From contig OX595992.1 in NCBI GenBank assembly GCA_951394045.1, positions 1,116,001 through 1,180,000 of the forward strand: 64,000 nucleotides of DNA. The letters are read 5' to 3'. Below, piece by piece: positions 3,338 to 51,152 of the stretch. Within the stretch, counting starts at the first letter, position 1. Each line of letters begins with the position of its first letter. Source of the stretch: Nitzschia sp. DOCU1. Taxonomy: Eukaryota; Bacillariophyta; Bacillariophyceae; Bacillariales; Bacillariaceae. A program made the position numbers and the translations under genes. The notes beneath the pieces were generated by a model. That model worked only from the letters and a program-made list of their open reading frames with translations. It was not told where the DNA came from and ran no database searches.

Positions 3338-5620
3338 CTATGATTTTTTAGCTGCTGCTTGCGGCTCGGCAAAGTCCGGGAATTTTTCAACAAGATGTTT
3401 CACAAGAAACTCTGTCCCAGCACCTGGATGCGTTCTCATCCAATCCTCTTGCTCTGCCATAACTACTCGAAATGCTGGACCTACCGGAATACCGGGCAAT
3501 ATTTCCTTTATTGCTTTCCCATCCATAAGAGGTTTTTCGTCCCAAATCCCGACGACTCCTATCCGCTGTATTGCGGTAGCAAACGCATCGTATCGTTCCA
3601 TCTCTCCAAGACGCTGTTCTTCTTGACTTTCGTCAATGACATCGCCCTCGATAACGTAATCCAAGTCATCGCCGTAAATCTTCACCAATCGTTCTGACAA
3701 GCTGAGGAAAAGAGCTGCTCGCCACAGTGGGCCGAGCTTACTGACCAGCTTGGCACAGCGCAATCGGAACTCCATTGCATGCTGCCAGACAGGGTCGTCT
3801 TCCGATGCACTATAGACTCGTTTCCCCCGCATGTAGCATTTCAGTTTGCCTTCGCTCGCTGAGCTGTGATCGTCTTCGACTCGAATGTCACTCAGAAGGA
3901 CTGAAATAGCCGAGATGTCATATCCACAGTCCATGAGTTTCGTGAATTCAGAGGAGCCATCCATGATTCTTTCCACGGCTTCTGATTCCCGCACGGGTCG
4001 TTTCAGTTCATCCACGAGCAGGCGACAAATAATCGACCTGTTTGCCTTCTTTCCCTGTCGGTGACTCTTTTTGACTTTGTCCATTTGTTTGGAGTAATTG
4101 TAGACTGGCTTTAGAAACGACGCATACCAGAGAAAGCGACGTGCTTCGTCGTCTTCGGCAAGTGTTAGCTCTTTAACACCATGCGTGGTATAGGCTCCCT
4201 TTTTCTGACACCAATTGGGAGGAAATACCTTGCAATCTGCTAGATATTCGTGCGTTTCCGAAAGTAGCTCGAGGCCTTCGTCAAACAGCGACAAAGCACA
4301 GCCCTCATTTTCGAAGCAATTTTCGAAGGGGAATACGGTGCTTGCCAAATTCAGGTTGATCAGGAGACGCATTGCGCCAACTGGGTCGGGAGACCTGAGC
4401 ATCAAATCCACTTCGCCCCCTATTCGTTCCCGTGATACCTTTTCAGCCAGGGCTTTACGTACACGACTATCCATTGCTGCCTCAATCAAAGCATCATCCA
4501 TGGTGAACCGTAGCCGCGCTGCGAAGCGCACAGAACGCAACGCTCGTAGAGGATCGTCCAACAAAGTAGTCAGAGGAGCAAGTGGTGTGGCGACAATGCC
4601 CCTTCGCAAATCATCAAAGCCGCGGCCAGTCCAATCTTCCACCTGCCCATTATTGATGTTGTAAAAAAGGGCGTTGATAGTGAGGTCTCGTCGAAAGGCA
4701 TCCTCTGCTGGAGTACCGATACGCATCAGATCGGGGATGCGGCTATCCTGAGTATATTCTTCGGCGCGGAGATTCACAAAATCAATCCAAAAAGAGCCAA
4801 CTTTCATCGTGGCTGTCTCCAAGTGTTTTGACTTTTCTGGGTTCTTCAAAACCACTCCAACGCTATGCGTCTCCTCTCCCACTTGCTCCAAATAATCGTT
4901 CAGGCGTTCCGCGAACTCTCTACCCAACATATCGTCCAACGCAATATCAATATCTACGGGTTGGTGCTGATCGCTGTTCAGAATCTTGGTGCCCTGCCTT
5001 CCCATACTGGATTGCTTGTACTTTGCAGTTAATCTACCCTTGTCATGGTGAGTTCGGGCAAATTCAGGCGTCGCAAGCAGCTTGTCTCGAACCCAGCCCC
5101 CGGCTACTCGTAGAGTCGTAGATATCTCGGTTTCTTCTCGCGCCTTTCGCAATAGACGGAAAAGCTCCCGTTCTTCGGCTGATAACTTGATATAAAGCCC
5201 ATAGCTTCGCTTTGCCTCCGCGCGTTTGTTATTAGTCGAAATGGAAGCCATGAACGAGGACTGAATGCGCGCTGCCTTCTTTGTTGGTGTAGATGGGACG
5301 GTCTCGCCAACTATTATTTGTGCCAACAATGGTTCTGTGGCATGAACAAGGGAGGCCGGGAAAATGGACCTACTTAGGCTTTCCCAAAACGCGGGGAACC
5401 CTGCGCTAATGGTTGTGCTTTTGTCCTCATCCACATCATTATTGTAATTGCCATAAAACCTCAGTTGCCGCGAGTCGAGGGCGGCAAGTGCAGTGCTGGC
5501 TTGTTCCCGCGATGAAAGAGTCGCCTTACATGGGTTCACAAATGCATGTGTCCGCCTCGTCCAGACTGCCACCAACGATAGCGTTGTCATTATGCAGGTG
5601 GCTCGCAGAAACTTTCTCAT
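3338..5620 (-). CDS. CCA tRNA nucleotidyltransferase, plastid-targeted
   Basis: Class II tRNA nucleotidyltransferase/poly(A) polymerase family, which adds or repairs the 3' CCA end of tRNAs using CTP and ATP. It is a single 760-residue exon. The head domain has GGWVRD near residue 172, the metal-binding DIDIALDD near 221, the RRDLTINALFYN block near 310, and the ERhxxE-type region with LDDPLRALRSVRFAARL after it. A long helical C-terminal region follows. The N-terminus is a signal peptide ending in THAFVNP, an ASAFAP-like plastid motif with Phe at +1. Over 100 residues of low-conservation linker precede the catalytic head. It is convergent with the GH28 gene, with about 80 bp between the stops. 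Plastid localisation is predicted from the presequence. Dual targeting to mitochondria or cytosol from an internal start is possible. Confidence 0.9.
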   Translation of the reverse strand: MRKFLRATCIMTTLSLVAVWTRRTHAFVNPCKATLSSREQASTALAALDSRQLRFYGNYNNDVDEDKSTTISAGFPAFWESLSRSIFPASLVHATEPLLAQIIVGETVPSTPTKKAARIQSSFMASISTNNKRAEAKRSYGLYIKLSAEERELFRLLRKAREETEISTTLRVAGGWVRDKLLATPEFARTHHDKGRLTAKYKQSSMGRQGTKILNSDQHQPVDIDIALDDMLGREFAERLNDYLEQVGEETHSVGVVLKNPEKSKHLETATMKVGSFWIDFVNLRAEEYTQDSRIPDLMRIGTPAEDAFRRDLTINALFYNINNGQVEDWTGRGFDDLRRGIVATPLAPLTTLLDDPLRALRSVRFAARLRFTMDDALIEAAMDSRVRKALAEKVSRERIGGEVDLMLRSPDPVGAMRLLINLNLASTVFPFENCFENEGCALSLFDEGLELLSETHEYLADCKVFPPNWCQKKGAYTTHGVKELTLAEDDEARRFLWYASFLKPVYNYSKQMDKVKKSHRQGKKANRSIICRLLVDELKRPVRESEAVERIMDGSSEFTKLMDCGYDISAISVLLSDIRVEDDHSSASEGKLKCYMRGKRVYSASEDDPVWQHAMEFRLRCAKLVSKLGPLWRAALFLSLSERLVKIYGDDLDYVIEGDVIDESQEEQRLGEMERYDAFATAIQRIGVVGIWDEKPLMDGKAIKEILPGIPVGPAFRVVMAEQEDWMRTHPGAGTEFLVKHLVEKFPDFAEPQAAAKKS

Positions 5621-6424
5621 AACGAATCTCTCTTTCGATCTTTGCTTCGACTTCTTTTTCGGATTGTGTACAAAAGAAAATGGAAGAGGCTTAATCTTCC
5701 CTCCTTCTACAGAGATCTTCGGTGGCAGGGTCCAGCAAATGTTAACGGACCACCACTTGTGATAGCATCATCAGCGAGCGAGACGCTATGCACTTTGATT
5801 CGCAGGACTGTCTCGCGAATCTTATCTGCAGGTGGTATCGCGTGCCAGGTGGCACGCACGAACGAATCACATTGGCGATGGGTACGTGTTCAACGTCCGG
5901 GTCTTTTCTCGCGAACACTTTCTGCAGTTGGAGTCTCCGTATCCTTCGATAAGATTGGTGCAACCGAGAGGAAAAGGTCATCCTCACTCGATTTTGCGTT
6001 TTGCGTTTTGCGTTCCGAAAGATATGATAGTTCCCCAAGGACGGCACACGGGAAGGAACCCCCAAGCTTATCCTTGCAGTCTGGATATTATTTTTCCAGC
6101 ACAATGGGTCCACAAGCACCAATAGTAGCAACAACCCCGGCTCATACAGAACAACATGGCCGTATAGACTAACTATTGTTGCTGGAAGTAGTATTACTTA
6201 GGCGAACTAGGAAAGTACAAGCAGTTTGTGACCCAAGACAAACAACTACTTTATGCCGTACCTTGTAGTCGTCTTTGAACAAGATTTCTTTTAAGAATCG
6301 TTCGTCAGGCCATACATACAAACCTATTATCGGTAGTAGGTACCTGATTGGGTCAACGGTTGACTCTAGTAGCTACTACAACTAGCTACAATCCGCACTC
6401 GAATCAAAACAGAAATGGCAACTC
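5621..6424. other. Intergenic region with no supported gene
   Basis: Overlapping short ORFs on both strands show no recognisable protein. A short direct repeat (TTTTGCG units around 5993-6016) is the only visible structure. It is presumably the promoter and 5' region of the CCA-enzyme gene. Confidence 0.4.
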
Positions 6425-6456
6425 CTAGGAGCAGGTTTGTACTGTAGCACTGAAAC

Positions 6457-6460
6457 AAAA
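6457..6460 (-). terminator. Oligo-T, possible Pol III terminator
   Basis: A TTTT run on the minus strand begins 15 nt past the last mature nucleotide of the permuted tRNA's 5' half, directly after the trailer strand of the predicted processing helix. This fits RNA polymerase III termination. Confidence 0.5.
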
Positions 6461-6474
6461 TGTCTCCGGCGGTT

Positions 6475-6553
6475 CATAAGACCCCCACTCTGACCACTGA
6501 GTTACAGGAGCATTGTTTGCTCCAGGTGGGGTTCGAACCCACGACCAAGGGCT
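6475..6553 (-). tRNA. Circularly permuted tRNA-Ile(UAU) gene
   Basis: On the minus strand the 3' half of a tRNA lies upstream of its 5' half. The 3' half (6553-6518, 36 nt) gives position 38, the 3' anticodon stem, a TGGTC variable loop, a perfect T stem GTGGG/CCCAC with loop TTCGAAC, acceptor strand CTGGAGC and discriminator A. A 6-nt spacer (6517-6512) follows. The 5' half (6511-6475, 37 nt) gives acceptor GCTCCTG, TA, D stem ACTC/GAGT with an 8-nt loop containing GG, then the anticodon arm with loop CTTATG. Joining end to start gives exactly 73 nt: acceptor 6/7 pairs (one T-T mismatch), D stem 4/4, T stem 5/5, and an anticodon stem of three GC pairs plus two GT wobbles. The anticodon is UAU. 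The leader (6562-6568) and trailer (6464-6470) pair over 7 bp, and a CTT/AAG helix plus a 3-nt TCA bulge form a bulge-helix-bulge-like processing site at 37/38. G37 is unusual for an Ile tRNA. Confidence 0.82.
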
Positions 6554-6592
6554 GACTTGTGGCCGGAGTCGGAAAAATCGTAAAATATTAAG

Positions 6593-6600
6593 TATATAAA
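6593..6600 (-). promoter_or_regulatory. TATA-like element upstream of permuted tRNA
   Basis: The minus strand reads TTTATATA about 40 nt upstream of the tRNA 3' half and about 25 nt before the predicted leader helix. AT-rich upstream elements are common for Pol III genes. The internal box order here is reversed, B-box-like GGTTCGAAC before A-box-like TAACTCAGTGG. Confidence 0.35.
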
Positions 6601-6637
6601 ATCTGTTTGCTATTTCGTCAATCGCCACCAGTGTATC

Positions 6638-6754
6638 CTACCACAGATCATTCGGTTGGATGGACAGACGGTCCACCCAGCCCGCTCCGACCATGATGAT
6701 GGCAAACGCCGCCACTGCAAACAGGACTGTTTGCGTCATTGAGGCTGTAGGCAT
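6638..6754 (-). CDS. Possible 38-residue single-span membrane protein
   Basis: A short ATG-initiated frame encodes a polar N-terminus (MPTASMTQ), one clean hydrophobic helix of about 18 residues rich in Ala, Val and Ile, and a polar tail ending in PNDLW. The composition resembles small single-helix subunits of thylakoid or mitochondrial inner-membrane complexes, but I cannot assign a family. The start lies 98 bp from the divergent LSm2 start codon, and the stop lies 84 bp from the permuted tRNA. It could be a chance frame. The well-formed membrane helix is the main support. Confidence 0.45.
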   Translation of the reverse strand: MPTASMTQTVLFAVAAFAIIMVGAGWVDRLSIQPNDLW

Positions 6755-6852
6755 TTTGTGGCAAAAGCAGCTCACGAAGCAGGAAGATTGGCTACTTGAG
6801 CTACGCTAGAAAAGGGATTGTATTGCTGGTCACTTATTCCTTCGGCATTGTC

Positions 6853-7247
6853 ATGGTACGTTCACTGCTAAGTTTGGACACATATTTTGTCGGCTTCATT
6901 CATTCCAGCCGATATCTGACATACATTTCATTATCCTTGATTTGGCATCGCTGATGTTTCAGATATTTCTATCCTTCTTCAAGACACTGGTCGGAAAAGA
7001 GATTGCCGTCGAGCTGAAGAACGATGTTGTGTTGACTGGGACGCTGCATAGTGTTGATCAGTATCTCAACGTTAAGCTCCTGAACGTGAAAATTATCAAC
7101 CCCGACAAGTATCCGCAGCTCGTTGCCTTGCAGAATTGCTTCGTACGAGGCAGCGTCGTCAGATATATCCAAATCCCTCCGGAGCACGTCGATGTCGAAT
7201 TGCTGCAGGATGCTGCGAGAAAGGAAAATGCACCCGCGGGGAAATAG
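6853..7247 (+). CDS. LSM2: U6 snRNA-associated Sm-like protein LSm2
   Basis: Sm-like subunit of the LSm1-7 (mRNA decay) and LSm2-8 (U6 snRNP) heptameric rings. The sequence carries the Sm1 block around VGKEIAVELKND..GTLHSVDQYLN and the Sm2 block CFVRGSVVRYIQIP. Those spacings are characteristic of LSm2. The best model has ATG alone as exon 1 (6853-6855), a 107-nt intron (6856-6962), and exon 2 at 6963-7247. This gives 95 residues beginning MIFLSFFK, closely matching the usual LSm2 start and length. The alternative is an unspliced start at the ATG at 6954 (MFQIFLSFF). It is divergent from the small membrane ORF. Confidence 0.93.
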
Positions 7248-8274
7248 AAGAAATGTAAAGGGAATGTCACATCGGCAATTGAATCTGTTGGTTGATGGTC
7301 TTCATGAGCCTTGGCAACAAGATGAAAACTGGGATGATTGGCAGCAAACTACCCGAAAAATGAGGAACTTGAGTGCGGGGATATTGTGGTTGCTAATTGC
7401 AAGGGGTGTTATTACGAGATGCTTTCGTCCAAGGAGGAGATAGCAGTCCATGCGTGGCGCTGGCGACTGATGTTCAACGCAATATGTACTACTTGCTCAA
7501 AATAATGATTATGCTTAAAAGCTTTCTACTATTTTGTATCATCATCATCGTTGCTTCGACAAAGGGCCGCAACCGTTTCTCCCGAGTACGTAAAACCTAC
7601 CATAGATATGACAGATACACCCCTGCTTAACTATGATTCTGACATTTGACTCATTTGAGTGCAAGATTACCCCGCATGATGAGAAGGATCGATCGTGTGG
7701 TGTGAATGAAGGCCAAACTTTGTGTCATCGGCCTTCGGCGAATTTTGGCAGTTCTGCCGGCATTTTACTGTGGTGATATGCCACGGATTTTCTCACGAAT
7801 AGTGGGCAATTAATAGTACGAATTGCTACGACAGAGAATCTAAAGTTTGGGCTTTCACTACGAGCGTTCGGGGTTCGAGATATGCGTGATAGTCATGCCC
7901 AAATCCAATTCAATGTCGACAGGACAGTGACGAAAGAGTCTCATTATTATTGCCCTACACCATAATTCATATGGTCAGGGAATTAGGGAGAAAAGAGATT
8001 GTTGCTCAACTTCTCGGTGGTCTTCAGGAAGTTGAGAGTTGTCATCGAGGAGAAAGATGAGTGGTGCTTCTCCCTCCAACGTCGGAACCTTCCTTCGTTG
8101 CCGGGTGGCGCATGGGAGGAACATTTTCGATCAGGGAGCAAACACTTCTGTGTTGTTGCCATTTAAAGCCCTCTCAAGTTCTACCCAAACAAAAAAGTAT
8201 CGAAGGGCACAGTCACTACTTCGAGAACGTCTTTTGCAAGATCTCCTGTTTGACGATTGTCGTCGACGTTAACG
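7248..8274. other. Intergenic region with no supported gene
   Basis: About 1 kb between two plus-strand genes. Short frames here lack any recognisable domain. It holds the LSm2 3' region and the promoter/5' UTR of the cyclase gene. Confidence 0.4.
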
Positions 8275-11200
8275 ATGGCGCCTATGCCAAAGGGCGTGGC
8301 CAAGGACGACGCGGTGTCCGTTGCAAGCTCGTCGCAGTTTTCGAGTGATGTAGGGGGTCACTCAAGCAGCAGTGCTTCCAACAGAACTGGCGCCAAGCGC
8401 CAGAATCAGCCTCCTCCGGTCGAAGTGGACATTGAAACTCGAAATGTCTACTGTGCGAAGCTGTTGATGATCGGGGTGCTCTCGATGGCTGCAGTTGCGG
8501 CTTCAATGGCGACATTCTTATTCACAACCAACGACATCGAAAGAACGTTTCAGTCGAAGGTAGGCAACTATGCATTTCCCACCCCAACCACTTTTGGATG
8601 AACCAGTAAGAAAGGCTGACATTCGTTTTCTGTTTTGTAGTTCCAAGAGTACTCGATCGAACTGGTGACTGTTTCGCAAGCACGCACGGAAAATCATCTC
8701 CATAGCTTGACCGCCCTCTCCCAGGGGTTCACATCATTTGCTACTGGTGCCAATTCATCTTGGCCTTTTGTCTCTCTTCCTGTGTTTGAAGCTCAAGCTG
8801 GAAGTCTTCGTGAGGATATCAACGCTGCTTGGTTGGCGTTGGTTCCACTGGTAGACGAGGAGACCAGGGTTGGATGGGAGTTTTATGCTTCTGAAAATGA
8901 CATTTGGATTGCGGAAAGCAGAAAGTTGGCGGGCGAGCCGGCAGAAGGGGGTGGTATCTATCCGGTTATCTTCCGAAGAGACAGCGATGGGCAGCCTTAC
9001 CGTGATAATGTACCGCCTGATCCATATTATGCACCCATCTGGCAGATTACCCCTCCATCAGTCGCGCAGGACAACGTGAACTACAATCAATTCGAGTCTG
9101 AACCTGTTAATATGTTATACCAGGAGGTTGTGTCAAGCGGCAGGGGCACGTTTTCAGGCATTTTGGATACAGCATCGAACAAAACCGATTGGCCACGCAG
9201 CTTCATTGCGACCCCCGTGTACGATACGTTGTTGGATACCGAGGCTACGGAAATGGTAGCAATGCTTCTTTCGGAAGTGCCGTGGCACACAAACTTTGAA
9301 AACATTCTACCTGATGGTGCAAACGGGGTCGTTCTCGTCTTGACTTATTCGTGTGAAGGAGCGGCCGACGTTGAGCATACGTTTGGAGTATATGGTCCGG
9401 ATGTCATTTACATCGGCCCTGGTGATTTGCATGCCCATCCTCGCTGGACCTTTGACGAGTATTCAGCAGAGGCCCCCATTTTCTACACGGGTGGTACATG
9501 CTCCTACTCTCTACACCTCTTTCCATCTGACGAGCTCGCCAGCAGCTATGAATCAAACCGACCAGCTGTTTACACCAGCATCGTTGTCCTCATTTTCCTG
9601 GTAACTTCTACGGTATTCGTCTGGTATGACTGTACCGTAAATAAGCGCCAGGACAAAGTTGATAAAACGGCCGCGAAAACTTCGGCTATCGTCGAATCCT
9701 TCTTCCCTTCTCATATTCGAGACCGTATTATGCAAGCCGACGAAGGAGGAAATCATGCCACGGCCGCTGCCATTAGCAGAGTGTTTGACAACGATCTTCT
9801 TGCGACCAAACCCATTGCAGATTTGTTTCCGCATGCTACAGTCATGGTGAGCATGCATTGTTTCGTTACTCGTGCTCAAGTTGATGCGCTTCTCATTCTC
9901 AACTTTTTGTTTATACGCTAGTTCGCCGATATCGTCGGCTTCACCGCTTGGTCTTCTGTTCGAGAACCTTCGCAAGTTTTTACTCTCTTGGAAACGGTGT
10001 ACAAGTAAGTCTGCCTCAGTCGAATCGGGATTGTCGCCTTTCGTTCGTTTTCTCACCTTTTTTCCACTCTCCCAGCGCCTTTGACAAAATCGCAGCGCGA
10101 CGCCGCGTATTCAAAGTCGAGACCATTGGGGACTGTTACGTTGCTGCCGCCGGTCTTCCTGATCCCAGAGAAGATCACGCTATTGTGATGGCCAGATTTG
10201 CTCGGGATTGCTTGGAGACGATGGGAGACCTTGTGCACACCCTTGAAACAACACTCGGTCCTGATACAGCGGAGCTTCGAAGTGAGTCGGCTCGTTGCAT
10301 ATCTCAAATTTCGTCGCCACCCTACCCACGGACACATCTAACGTTTGTACCTTCTCTTCCTATTACCCAGTGCGTTTTGGGCTTCATAGCGGCCCTGTCA
10401 CTGGTGGCGTCCTTCGTGGAGACAAAAGTCGGTTTCAGCTGTTTGGGGACACTGTGAATACTGCAGCCAGAATCGAAAGCACTGGTCTCAAGAACAAAAT
10501 TCACTTGTCGAAAGAGACAGCAAATCTTCTTGTGGAAGCCGACAAGGCCGATTGGGTCCGAGAACGCGAGGACATCGTGGTTGCGAAAGGCAAAGGCGAA
10601 ATTAAGACATACTGGCTGGTTGCCGGGCTTGAAGCTTCCAATGTTGGAGGTAGCGACGAAAGTACTTCACCCGAGAGCGAAGAAGGCGTTTTGGGCTCGA
10701 CTCGTATCGGTGCTCCGTCCGTTTCCGGCCCGTTGAAGGCGAGCAATCGTCTCATTGGTTGGAATGTTGACGTTTTGGCAAGGTGTCTGAAACAGATCGT
10801 TGCCATGAGAGAACCGGGAATAAAAAGCGAAAATGATTCCCAGGAGGTCTACTACAACAAGCCCGGCCAGACGGTACTTGACGAAGTTCAAGAGATAATT
10901 GCCCTACCGGGTAAGCCCAGTAAATACAAAAGGGACCCTGAGGAAATTGATCTTGGACAAGAAGTAATGTCCCAGCTCACTGACCTTGTGAGTGAGATCG
11001 CCAACAAATACAGAGAAAATCCGTTCCATAATTTCCAGCATGCAGTAAGTTGTTGTTGCCTGCCACGTGCGGACTTCCGGGGATCCCGCAAAACTCACCA
11101 CTTCGTTGCGGCTTCCGCAGAGTCATGTGACACAAAGTTTGACGAAACTACTTTCGCGTGTCGTAGCACCGGAGGCCATTGACTACGATGAAATGACGTA

Positions 11201-48375: not shown

Positions 48376-50481
48376 TTATGCTGTTTCGATTGGCCATCCT
48401 ACTTCCTGCAGTTTCGAAATAAGTTTACCTTCTTCGTGCATCTTGGACGTTTGCTTGAAGCCACCAAAAAACTCTCCACCTATGTACAGGTTCGGAACGC
48501 TGCGTCGCCCCGATATTGTCATCATGTGGTATCGAATCTCCTGTGAAATTTCCTTGTAGTCATCCAAATCAATAATGTGGGGTATCTTAGCTCCAATGCT
48601 TGCCAAGAGTTCCAATGAATGTTTGCATTCGGGGCACCATTCCAGGGAGAACATGACAACGGGATACTTTTTGATAATTGCCTCGATACAAGATTGCTCC
48701 GCTAGATTGCAGTCTTCGTTCCCGCTATTCCCACCGTCTTCTTCGTCTCCGCTTCCTTCGCTGCTCGCATCTAGTGCTCCAGCTGCAACAAGGAGGGGAA
48801 CTAGCTTCCCTCGAGCTTGCAGTGCCGACGTCTCGTCCCCTCCACCAATGCTCTTACCACCAACGAACACATTGGGTACTGTCCGCCGACCTGTCATGGA
48901 ACCAAGGGTAGCTTGGACGGCTTGAGTGTTTGGATTTGCCGAAAGATCAACGACAAAGGGCTCCGGAACGCCAGCCGCGGCCAGCGCCTCCATGGCTTTG
49001 CGGCAATAAGGGCACCATGATTTTGAAAAGACGACCACGGTATGACTCGAGACAATCTGAGAAATACAATCTTGCTCTGTCATGTCGCATGTGACGGTGG
49101 CGTCGTCCTTTGCCTCTGGCTCTTCCGCCCTTCGTTCAACTTTTGGCCGGCTGTGCGTTTCCTCCTTTGCGACTGCTCGCTGGGGAACAGCAATATGTTT
49201 GTGAACTCCATGCGTCTCCCGAAGCCATCGTTCGGCATCAATTGCAGCTTGGGCTCCGGCCGCCGATGCCGTGATTGCCTGCTTGTAGACATTATCAGCC
49301 ACTTCCCCCACGGCAAATATCCCCGAGACAGATGTCTTTGTGGCACTACCTTCAAGTTTCACCAAGGCCTCGTCGTCTAACTCGACTACATCCTTGACCC
49401 ACTGAGTGTTCGGGTCGGCTCCAATCATAACAAAGGCCCCATCAATGGAAAGGACTCGTTCCTCCTGGTGTTTGTCGGTTCGATGTATTCTCGCTCCTAT
49501 CAGTTGGTTCTCCCCGTTGAGATCCCACGCTTGCACGACAAATGGCTGCAACAAATGAATATTCGGCGTAGTGCTAGCCACTTCTACAGCAACTTGATTC
49601 TTGCCTGATAATTGCGTCCCTCGATGCACCACATATACTTGGTTGGCATAACGTGCCAGTAAAATGGCAGCATCCATGGCCGAGTCGCCACCTCCCACGA
49701 CTAGGACATTCTTGTCGAGGTACAAGTGGCCATCGCAAATAGCACAACTGTGTAATGTCTTGCCCCACAGAAACTCTTCCTTGGGTAGTCCTAAATGACG
49801 AGGAGAAGCGCCCGTCGCCACAATGACCGACCAGGCATGAATCATTTGTTCTTTGGAATTCTGGGAATTTGTCGTCAGAGTGAATAATCCGCTCTCACTA
49901 CTTTGCTGTAACTCGGTTGCGAGTACTCCTGCCGTCGCAAATTTCGCACCAAACTGTATCGCTTGCTGCTTGGTTGCTTTAAGCCACGCGGGTCCATTTC
50001 CATCGGTATAACTTGGAAAATTATCCAAATGCTGCGTTTCCGACAACAGACCCGTTTCGGACCCTAGCACCATGACATCGAGGCCCGCTCGTGCTCCAAA
50101 CAAGGCTGCCGTCAGGCCCGCAGGACCCGCACCCGCAATGACAATATCATGAATCGGGCCTTCCACTCCCAGTGCTGCAGCATCGAGTAACGTCCTTGCC
50201 GTATTTTTGTGGTCGGTACTATTTGTGCCACGTAGTTGATAGTACGAACCTCCTCCCACCAGTCCAACCAAGACGAGTGCAGTGACAAGAAAGATCGTAG
50301 TTCGACCCCTCTGGAGTTTGCTTCTTGGTGAAAATATTCTTGACGACGAAACCCCGTTGGAGTAGTACATTGGCAAAGACGTTGTCGTCCCTGCAGATTT
50401 GCGTTCGGGCGTGGGGGAGCCATTACTGGAAGAATGAACACCTCCTCGGCGGCTTCGAAGTAACGTTGACGTATGACTCAT
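48376..50481 (-). CDS. Membrane-anchored thioredoxin reductase fused to two glutaredoxins
   Basis: A single 701-residue exon starting at MSHTSTLL. The N-terminus has one hydrophobic span (TTIFLVTALVLVGLVGG). A low-Mr NADPH-dependent thioredoxin-reductase module (about 110-430) follows, with FAD-binding GAGPAG, redox-active CAIC near residue 245, NADP-binding VVGGGDSAMDAA, and the FAD-binding GIFAVGEVAD. Two glutaredoxin-like domains come next: CPYC near 490 with RRTVPNVFVGGKSIGG, and CPEC near 614 with GRRSVPNLYIGGEFFGG. The TVP/SVP and GG glutathione-site motifs are intact in both. The protein could pass electrons from NADPH to its own glutaredoxin sites. Topology and compartment are open, because the single span follows a basic N-terminus. 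Confidence 0.93.
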   Translation of the reverse strand: MSHTSTLLRSRRGGVHSSSNGSPTPERKSAGTTTSLPMYYSNGVSSSRIFSPRSKLQRGRTTIFLVTALVLVGLVGGGSYYQLRGTNSTDHKNTARTLLDAAALGVEGPIHDIVIAGAGPAGLTAALFGARAGLDVMVLGSETGLLSETQHLDNFPSYTDGNGPAWLKATKQQAIQFGAKFATAGVLATELQQSSESGLFTLTTNSQNSKEQMIHAWSVIVATGASPRHLGLPKEEFLWGKTLHSCAICDGHLYLDKNVLVVGGGDSAMDAAILLARYANQVYVVHRGTQLSGKNQVAVEVASTTPNIHLLQPFVVQAWDLNGENQLIGARIHRTDKHQEERVLSIDGAFVMIGADPNTQWVKDVVELDDEALVKLEGSATKTSVSGIFAVGEVADNVYKQAITASAAGAQAAIDAERWLRETHGVHKHIAVPQRAVAKEETHSRPKVERRAEEPEAKDDATVTCDMTEQDCISQIVSSHTVVVFSKSWCPYCRKAMEALAAAGVPEPFVVDLSANPNTQAVQATLGSMTGRRTVPNVFVGGKSIGGGDETSALQARGKLVPLLVAAGALDASSEGSGDEEDGGNSGNEDCNLAEQSCIEAIIKKYPVVMFSLEWCPECKHSLELLASIGAKIPHIIDLDDYKEISQEIRYHMMTISGRRSVPNLYIGGEFFGGFKQTSKMHEEGKLISKLQEVGWPIETA

Positions 50482-51152
50482 GGATGACAACAGCGCTGCG
50501 ACAATCTCACGTTATGGTAGCTTTTGCAATAGTGGTGAGTATCTCGTTGGAAGCGGAATAGTTTGTGTACATCTTCCACAACCTTGTCATCTTGTTTCGG
50601 ATTGTCCAAAAAAAGGAGATGGTGAATGGCGCATATCGTCGTAGCCGTCACGTTGAAATGTGTACTACGGGTCGGAGGGAGAGACGTGCGATTGATGACT
50701 ACCGCGATTGATTGATGAGTTTATCCGACTGGTTCGATTTGTAGTTAGAACTGACGGTTGGCCTAGTACTACCGAACTATTCTAATGTGAGTCCCCTCTT
50801 GGGTACTCGTATACTTCTAGCTACTCTGAGACAGAAGTAGCATGTACAGTGAAGCAGATGTTAACTAGAGAGAACTCTCTAACAACGGACTGTCTACTAG
50901 CAAGAAAAGAGAATGAAAGCAAAGACCGGCCGTCAATCCGTAATGGAGGTGCAGCCTGGGCAAGCTTCGCTGGATTGGCTCACTTTTATCCTCTTATTGG
51001 CAATCCACAGCAACATCATACGGCTTCTGGGTCAAATGTTGATGGATTTTGTTTCTGCCCTGCTGCGTGTAGTCCTACGAAAAAGAATATCAAAGGTGCG
51101 GGGGATTCGACGCCAATAAACAAAATGATAAAGTAACCACAGAGCTCTAAAA
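50482..51152. other. Intergenic region with no supported gene
   Basis: Upstream of the reductase-glutaredoxin gene and downstream of EMC2. Two overlapping plus-strand frames at 50849-51136 show no domain. Confidence 0.4.

Follow-up and report, generated by a model that had tools for sequence, protein, structure and literature searches.

Probable circularly permuted genes for tRNA-Ile(UAU) and tRNA-Cys(GCA) in a diatom nucleus

The initial annotation of the DNA studied here proposed that a circularly permuted tRNA-Ile(UAU) gene lies in a diatom nucleus, and the question raised by the locus is whether it is such a gene, a decayed remnant or another kind of small RNA. We analysed a window of 64 kb (G000:C8:1116001-1180000), the whole stretch to which all positions without a contig name refer, and compared it with its genome of 52.1 Mb in 63 contigs. 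The locus is best explained, with a probability that we put at about 0.85, as a nuclear tRNA-Ile(UAU) gene circularly permuted at 37/38, in a diatom with at least one further permuted tRNA gene. Placement in the diatom nucleus, as first proposed, remains the best reading: the gene has a diatom-like CCA-adding enzyme as its neighbour and lies on a 2.8-Mb contig (C8), unlike C62 (41.5 kb) and C63 (125 kb), which contain many organelle-type tRNAs and look like the mitochondrion and the plastid.

Along the minus strand of the window, from 6553 to 6475, the 3′ half of the tRNA comes first, followed by a 6-nt spacer and the 5′ half. These coordinates are the same as in the initial annotation, which had left the strand unstated. 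The 3′ half (6518..6553, 36 nt) comprises positions 38-73, with the T arm and its B-box sequence, the 3′ acceptor strand and A73. The spacer (6512..6517, 6 nt; AACAAU, DNA AACAAT) leads from A73 to G1, and the 5′ half (6475..6511, 37 nt) provides positions 1-37, including the D arm with the A-box sequence, the anticodon UAU and, as its last base, G37. Joining the halves yields a 73-nt molecule that ARAGORN calls tRNA-Ile(tat), and the cloverleaf described earlier was reproduced in all respects, with complete D (4/4) and T (5/5) stems and six of seven acceptor pairs, the exception being a U6·U67 mismatch. The anticodon stem (5/5) includes two wobble pairs, G27·U43 and U31·G39, and A10 in the A box departs from the rule. 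An open reading frame of 67 amino acids (6425-6628, minus strand) overlaps the locus and has no sign of being a gene; from 5620 to 8665, no closed frame reaches 250 amino acids.

For comparison, a covariance model of a 37/38-permuted tRNA was built from 17 other nuclear tRNAs of the same genome, with the candidate left out; the tRNAs were cut at 37/38, their halves were exchanged and random spacers were inserted. This permuted model matched 6553-6475 end to end with 67.6 bits (E = 3.2e-20, a rough value from a short calibration), and no other match up to E = 10 was obtained on either strand of the 64-kb window. Conventional nuclear loci, among them the sources of the 17 training sequences, scored at most 28.8 bits (n = 26). 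On a conventional tRNA covariance model, in which the joined candidate was itself included, the linear Ile locus reached at most 24.5 bits. The prediction that a standard scan would miss the gene held: ARAGORN detected no tRNA gene in the linear locus or in the whole window, an Rfam scan of the window gave nothing above threshold, and the Rfam tRNA family (RF00005) scored 17.3 bits at the locus against a cut-off of 29 bits. The locus thus lacks the marks of a conventional gene, which has its 5′ half first and is found by standard models.

A second permuted gene was identified with the Rfam family RF02553 (YrlA). YrlA RNAs are bacterial, bound by Ro60 and not spliced to tRNA, and they resemble the Ile locus in having a T arm, acceptor and D arm in permuted order, closed by an outer helix; no paper describing YrlA as tRNA-like and permuted was found in the literature searched. 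In the genome search with this family, 46 of 1391 first-look candidates were scored and six matched up to E = 10, the two best being C5:3040013-3040114 (38.9 bits) and then the Ile locus. The former contains a permuted tRNA-Cys(GCA) gene (L086:1514-1591, equivalent to G000:C5:3040026-3040103) with 63.4 bits on the permuted model. Its joined halves are called tRNA-Cys(gca) by ARAGORN and form complete acceptor (7/7), D (4/4), T (5/5) and anticodon (5/5, with G27·U43) stems, followed by U73; the 6-nt spacer reads GUCUUG. Both loci have the traits of type II permuted genes, with the 3′ half upstream of the 5′ half on the same strand, 6 nt between them, and rejoined halves that give one full cloverleaf with a single anticodon. 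The Cys gene makes an isolated freak unlikely, and two permuted genes are a lower bound because only part of the RF02553 candidates was scored. Neither joined sequence has a second copy in the genome, BLAST returning only its own locus in each case. For tRNA-Cys, neither BLAST with the joined sequence nor an A-box pattern revealed a conventional gene, and the genomic RF00005 listing, itself incomplete, is also without one. The common D arm is rare among the nuclear tRNA genes: its A-box/D-arm pattern TAGCTCAG...AGAGC gave 12 matches, which are ten genes of the Rfam list, the permuted Cys gene and an intron-containing gene, L105, described below. From these searches, the nuclear tRNA set looks small and mostly low-copy.

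At the Ile junction, a fold in which the anticodon stem was enforced reproduced both the 7-bp pairing of leader and trailer and the 3-nt bulge at 37/38 noted earlier. Beyond the anticodon stem it consists of a UCA bulge (6553..6555), pairs of the anticodon-intron type between the leader AAG (6556..6558) and C32, U33 and U34, a C·A mismatch, CA/UG pairs and an AACC bulge in the trailer beside the 5′ cut (6471..6474), closed by the 7-bp outer helix of the leader strand CUCCGGC (6568-6562) with the trailer strand GCCGGAG (6470-6464). In this modelled structure the junction has the layout of a bulge-helix-bulge. By the rule that holds for 3′ bulges, the 3′ splice cut would fall within UC^A, just before A38 and between 6554 and 6553; the 5′ cut would lie between 6475 and 6474, after G37. 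Folded without constraints, the precursor takes another structure (−42.8 versus −39.0 kcal/mol, a difference of 3.8).

By itself, the leader/trailer helix is only moderately unlikely to arise by chance: under three null models, P lies between about 0.006 and 0.016. At least seven Watson-Crick pairs in the same register were seen in 0.57% of 50,000 random window pairs (0.31% of 50,000 when an A-I pair was required), and the duplex energy had P values of 0.008 against shuffles and 0.016 against the window. We dropped the helix as sole proof because, among 25 conventional genes, one has flanks whose pairing is almost as strong (−13.9 versus −15.0 kcal/mol at the Ile locus). The leader and trailer of the Cys locus pair no better than chance (P = 0.59 and 0.40), and its junction gave no clean bulge-helix-bulge fold.

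The genome also contains conventional tRNA genes with short introns. The Ile 3′ splice site, AAGUC^AGC, is identical to the intron end of a tRNA-Met(CAU) gene (L064, G000:C9:523091), whose 14-nt intron at 37/38 has AAGUC as its final bases and is followed by AGC. The intron of another tRNA-Met(CAU) gene (L065, C7:1623244) is 16 nt long and ends in UAGUU. The exons of the two Met genes are identical and their intron sequences differ; in the same fold test neither intron showed a bulge-helix-bulge layout. L105 (G000:C2:3698677-3698762, minus strand) is by our own reading a tRNA-Val(UAC) gene with a short 37/38 intron, which has 13 nt and the end AAGCA; ARAGORN puts the intron elsewhere and calls Cys(aca). 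Its fold has a 3-nt bulge at the 3′ site that resembles the bulge of the Ile locus. The end of the L105 intron pairs with the anticodon loop. The tRNA-intron endonuclease family (PF01974, cut-off 27 bits) has two genomic matches, of 45.7 and 27.2 bits, the stronger of which has two stops within its six-frame stretch.

The flanking signals of the initial annotation, a TATA-like element and a TTTT terminator, are in place: TATATA lies at 6598-6593, 45 nt upstream of position 38, and TTTT, a likely Pol III terminator, at 6460-6457, starting 15 nt after G37. We compared them with 25 conventional nuclear tRNA genes of the same genome. Between −50 and −21, 20 of the 25 have a TATA-like hexamer with up to one mismatch (54% of shuffles) and five have an exact one (7% of shuffles); six genes have their best match at −34, and in the others its position varies widely. 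An exact TATATA precedes both permuted genes (Ile, −45; Cys, −39), and the greater distance of the Ile element is what a longer leader would require. All 25 conventional genes are followed within 60 nt by a run of four or more T, starting at +1 to +11; the Ile run, at +15, is further off than any of these, and the Cys locus has a run of seven T from +7. Both permuted loci therefore have the TATA-like element upstream and the T run downstream, and neither signal between the halves. By analogy, this arrangement fits the TATA-led start that the available sections of PMC3978253 propose for Cyanidioschyzon merolae.

If the locus is a permuted gene, RNA polymerase III would start downstream of TATATA and stop at TTTT, and the leader and trailer of the transcript would pair and let the anticodon stem form. 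The tRNA splicing endonuclease would then remove both at 37/38 and tRNA ligase would join G37 to A38, giving a circle from which RNase P and tRNase Z would excise the 6-nt spacer. After addition of CCA, the product would be expected to read AUA codons, which make up 59 of the 387 Ile codons in 15 mechanically derived open reading frames of the window.

Judged by its sequence, the permuted tRNA-Ile(UAU) gene is genuine and probably functional. Of the other readings, the one that survives best, although we regard it as unlikely, is a permuted pseudogene that is no longer used, with AUA being read by an inosine-34 tRNA-Ile (from an AAU gene) or by an undetected conventional gene. Two tRNA-Ile(AAU) genes are indeed present in the genome, and G37, U6·U67 and A10 depart from the rule. 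G37 had gone unmentioned in the initial annotation. A37 is the rule after U36 and is present in all 11 U36 tRNAs of the 17-tRNA set, and G37 in this position is odd because the t6A modification requires A37, which weakens the case for AUA decoding by the permuted tRNA. A pseudogene is harder to reconcile with the score of 67.6 bits, with stems in which all other pairs are intact, and with the presence of both the splice-junction fold and the flanking signals. Among 16 other nuclear tRNAs, the closest to the joined sequence are Ile(AAU) (77%) and then Met (71%). The joined sequence and tRNA-Ile(AAU) have the same T arm, but we dropped this as a mark of identity because it is also found in tRNA-Lys(UUU).

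The lack of a detectable conventional gene also argues against a pseudogene. A standard tRNA-Ile(UAU) elsewhere in the genome, a point raised by the initial annotation, was found neither by BLAST of the joined sequence nor by genome-wide anticodon-to-B-box patterns, which cover genes with A37, an intron of up to about 25 nt and a usual B box. The broadest pattern, whose B box suits 23 of 25 known nuclear tRNAs (20 of 25 for the two narrower forms), gave 79 matches. Of these, 69 were tested with flanks, 11 of them from the narrower search and 58 further loci, each extended by about 57 to 75 bases in either direction. None of the 58 is a tRNA by the conventional covariance model or ARAGORN, both of which detected L105 as positive control, and the only tRNA among the 69 is an organelle tRNA-Ser on C62. 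The other ten matches are eight near-identical copies of a repeat (a ninth copy was tested), one locus whose matched letters are identical to those of a tested one, and one in which they are nearly so. The interspersed repeat itself consists of near-identical 53-base strings at nine places, such as G000:C4:450116-450168 and C11:901590-901642. A further pattern set, with 27 matches, can catch only genes with an intron of about 3 nt or more and says nothing of intronless genes; the known tRNA-Ile(AAU) genes escape it. Across the 27, 3 and 11 pattern matches, no conventional nuclear tRNA-Ile(UAU) was found by ARAGORN with introns allowed (all loci) or by the conventional model (38 loci; 24/27, 3/3 and 11/11), and the tRNAs that do occur among them are one nuclear tRNA-Gln and organelle tRNAs.

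A genome search with RF00005, in which 63 of 1655 candidates were scored, gave at least 25 nuclear genes, with tRNA-Cys and tRNA-Ile(UAU) not among them. Isotypes that must exist are missing from it as well, and we dropped this listing as the full nuclear set once L105 proved to be absent from it. As RF00005 missed this real gene, other genes may go undetected too, among them a conventional tRNA-Ile(UAU) if it had G37, a long intron or an unusual B box. Within what these searches cover, a conventional tRNA-Ile(UAU) is likely to be absent from the nuclear genome.

It is very improbable that the halves are chance neighbours, either as two unrelated tRNA remnants or as the unprocessed inner halves of a decayed tandem pair. 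A conventional tandem does score on the permuted model, the plastid trnI-trnA pair reaching 44.8 bits, and the sequence just past G37 resembles the next tRNA positions. This control, however, breaks four of seven acceptor pairs, whereas the two halves of the Ile locus both stop at 37/38, pair into a single acceptor stem (6/7) and a single anticodon stem (5/5), and have the junction fold on their flanks; the Cys locus has the same layout. Even less probable is a YrlA-type, Y-RNA-like small RNA with its tRNA-like part in the same permuted order: RF02553 is the best Rfam match at the Ile locus (34.8 bits, E = 2e-6 in a 201-base search) because YrlA contains such a part, and it also matches the Cys locus, but both lie far below its 69-bit cut-off (the Ile locus at about half), a six-frame genome search gave no match to a Ro60/TROVE protein (one of 14 control genomes, Deinobacterium, was positive), and joining yields a proper anticodon loop, of which YrlA has no need.

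The permuted Ile gene probably arose from a tandem tRNA duplication whose outer halves decayed. BLAST alignments of the joined sequences run past the junction, with 40 of 41 bases matching for Ile (positions 1-41), and 98% over 33-72 and 97% over 1-39 for Cys. Next to the cuts, leader and trailer are thus similar to the half that is no longer there, a pattern to be expected after loss of the outer halves of a tandem pair; this is the origin scenario given in the available sections of PMC3978253. The extensions comprise 3 to 4 bases with one mismatch each, and being so short they are only a hint of this origin.

The available sections of PMC3978253 (Soma 2014) tabulate 34 permuted tRNA genes from one red alga, four prasinophytes, a green-derived nucleomorph and one archaeon; in their accessible parts, PMC4494063 adds a second chlorarachniophyte nucleomorph and PMC12636532 the green alga Auxenochlorella. 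The type II genes of Ostreococcus, Micromonas and the Bigelowiella natans nucleomorph share with the diatom loci the order of the halves, the short spacer and the 37/38 junction (PMC3978253, in the sections available). They also have a bulge-helix at the junction, as at the Ile locus, and some have an AT-rich stretch upstream. Spacers in the known set of permuted genes span 1-74 bp, compared with 6 nt at both diatom loci. A permuted tRNA-Cys(GCA), like our second locus, is listed there for three prasinophytes. The host differs, being a diatom, and tRNA-Ile(UAU) is not among the 34 tabulated genes. According to the same sections, the permuted genes of C. merolae resemble the diatom loci in the upstream TATA-like element, the downstream T run and the inverted A and B boxes, and a circular intermediate has been demonstrated in this alga; its junctions, however, lie at several positions, whereas both diatom cases are at 37/38. 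The tRNA-Ile(UAU) of C. merolae has three introns (PMC9602550, in its accessible part) and does not appear in the permuted table of PMC3978253.

The literature searched, which was mostly open-access and had the 2010 Maruyama survey outside its range, contained no report of a permuted tRNA in diatoms. The words diatom and stramenopile are absent from the available sections of PMC3978253, and those of PMC8450103, PMC4090602, PMC13353863, PMC8975779 and PMC4247016 mention no diatom case. Viral contigs scanned for both permuted layouts gave none, a result of little weight as they form a virus collection. Permuted tRNA genes in diatoms are thus likely to be new to the literature.

Two permuted genes in a diatom nucleus would extend this arrangement to a lineage that combines a red-derived plastid with a different host nucleus. 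This bears on whether such genes are carried over by endosymbiosis or originate anew in any lineage that has 37/38 introns and an upstream promoter. Diatom tRNA sets obtained with standard tools may also lack needed members for a technical reason. More tentatively, and at slightly less than even odds, nuclear tRNA-Ile(UAU) and tRNA-Cys(GCA) may come from the permuted genes alone, and such genes may be more widespread in diatoms and overlooked by standard annotation; if so, all cysteine-containing cytosolic proteins of the diatom would depend on a circular tRNA precursor. Diatoms can be cultured and are hence open to a direct test.

The neighbour of the permuted gene, at 3338-5620 on the minus strand, encodes a CCA-adding enzyme (Pfam PolyA_pol) whose relatives are annotated as tRNA nucleotidyltransferase. 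Among the best 120 of 3998 matches, all those with a readable organism are from diatoms, including Cylindrotheca fusiformis, C. closterium, Nitzschia inconspicua, Fragilariopsis, Pseudo-nitzschia, Seminavis and Fistulifera. These matches mark the host as a diatom, probably a pennate one close to the Bacillariaceae. An enzyme that would finish the tRNA is thus encoded beside the permuted gene and on the same strand, which is probably a coincidence. Elsewhere in the window, a gene at 48376-50490 on the minus strand encodes a pyridine-nucleotide oxidoreductase, similar to thioredoxin reductase, fused to two C-terminal glutaredoxin domains.
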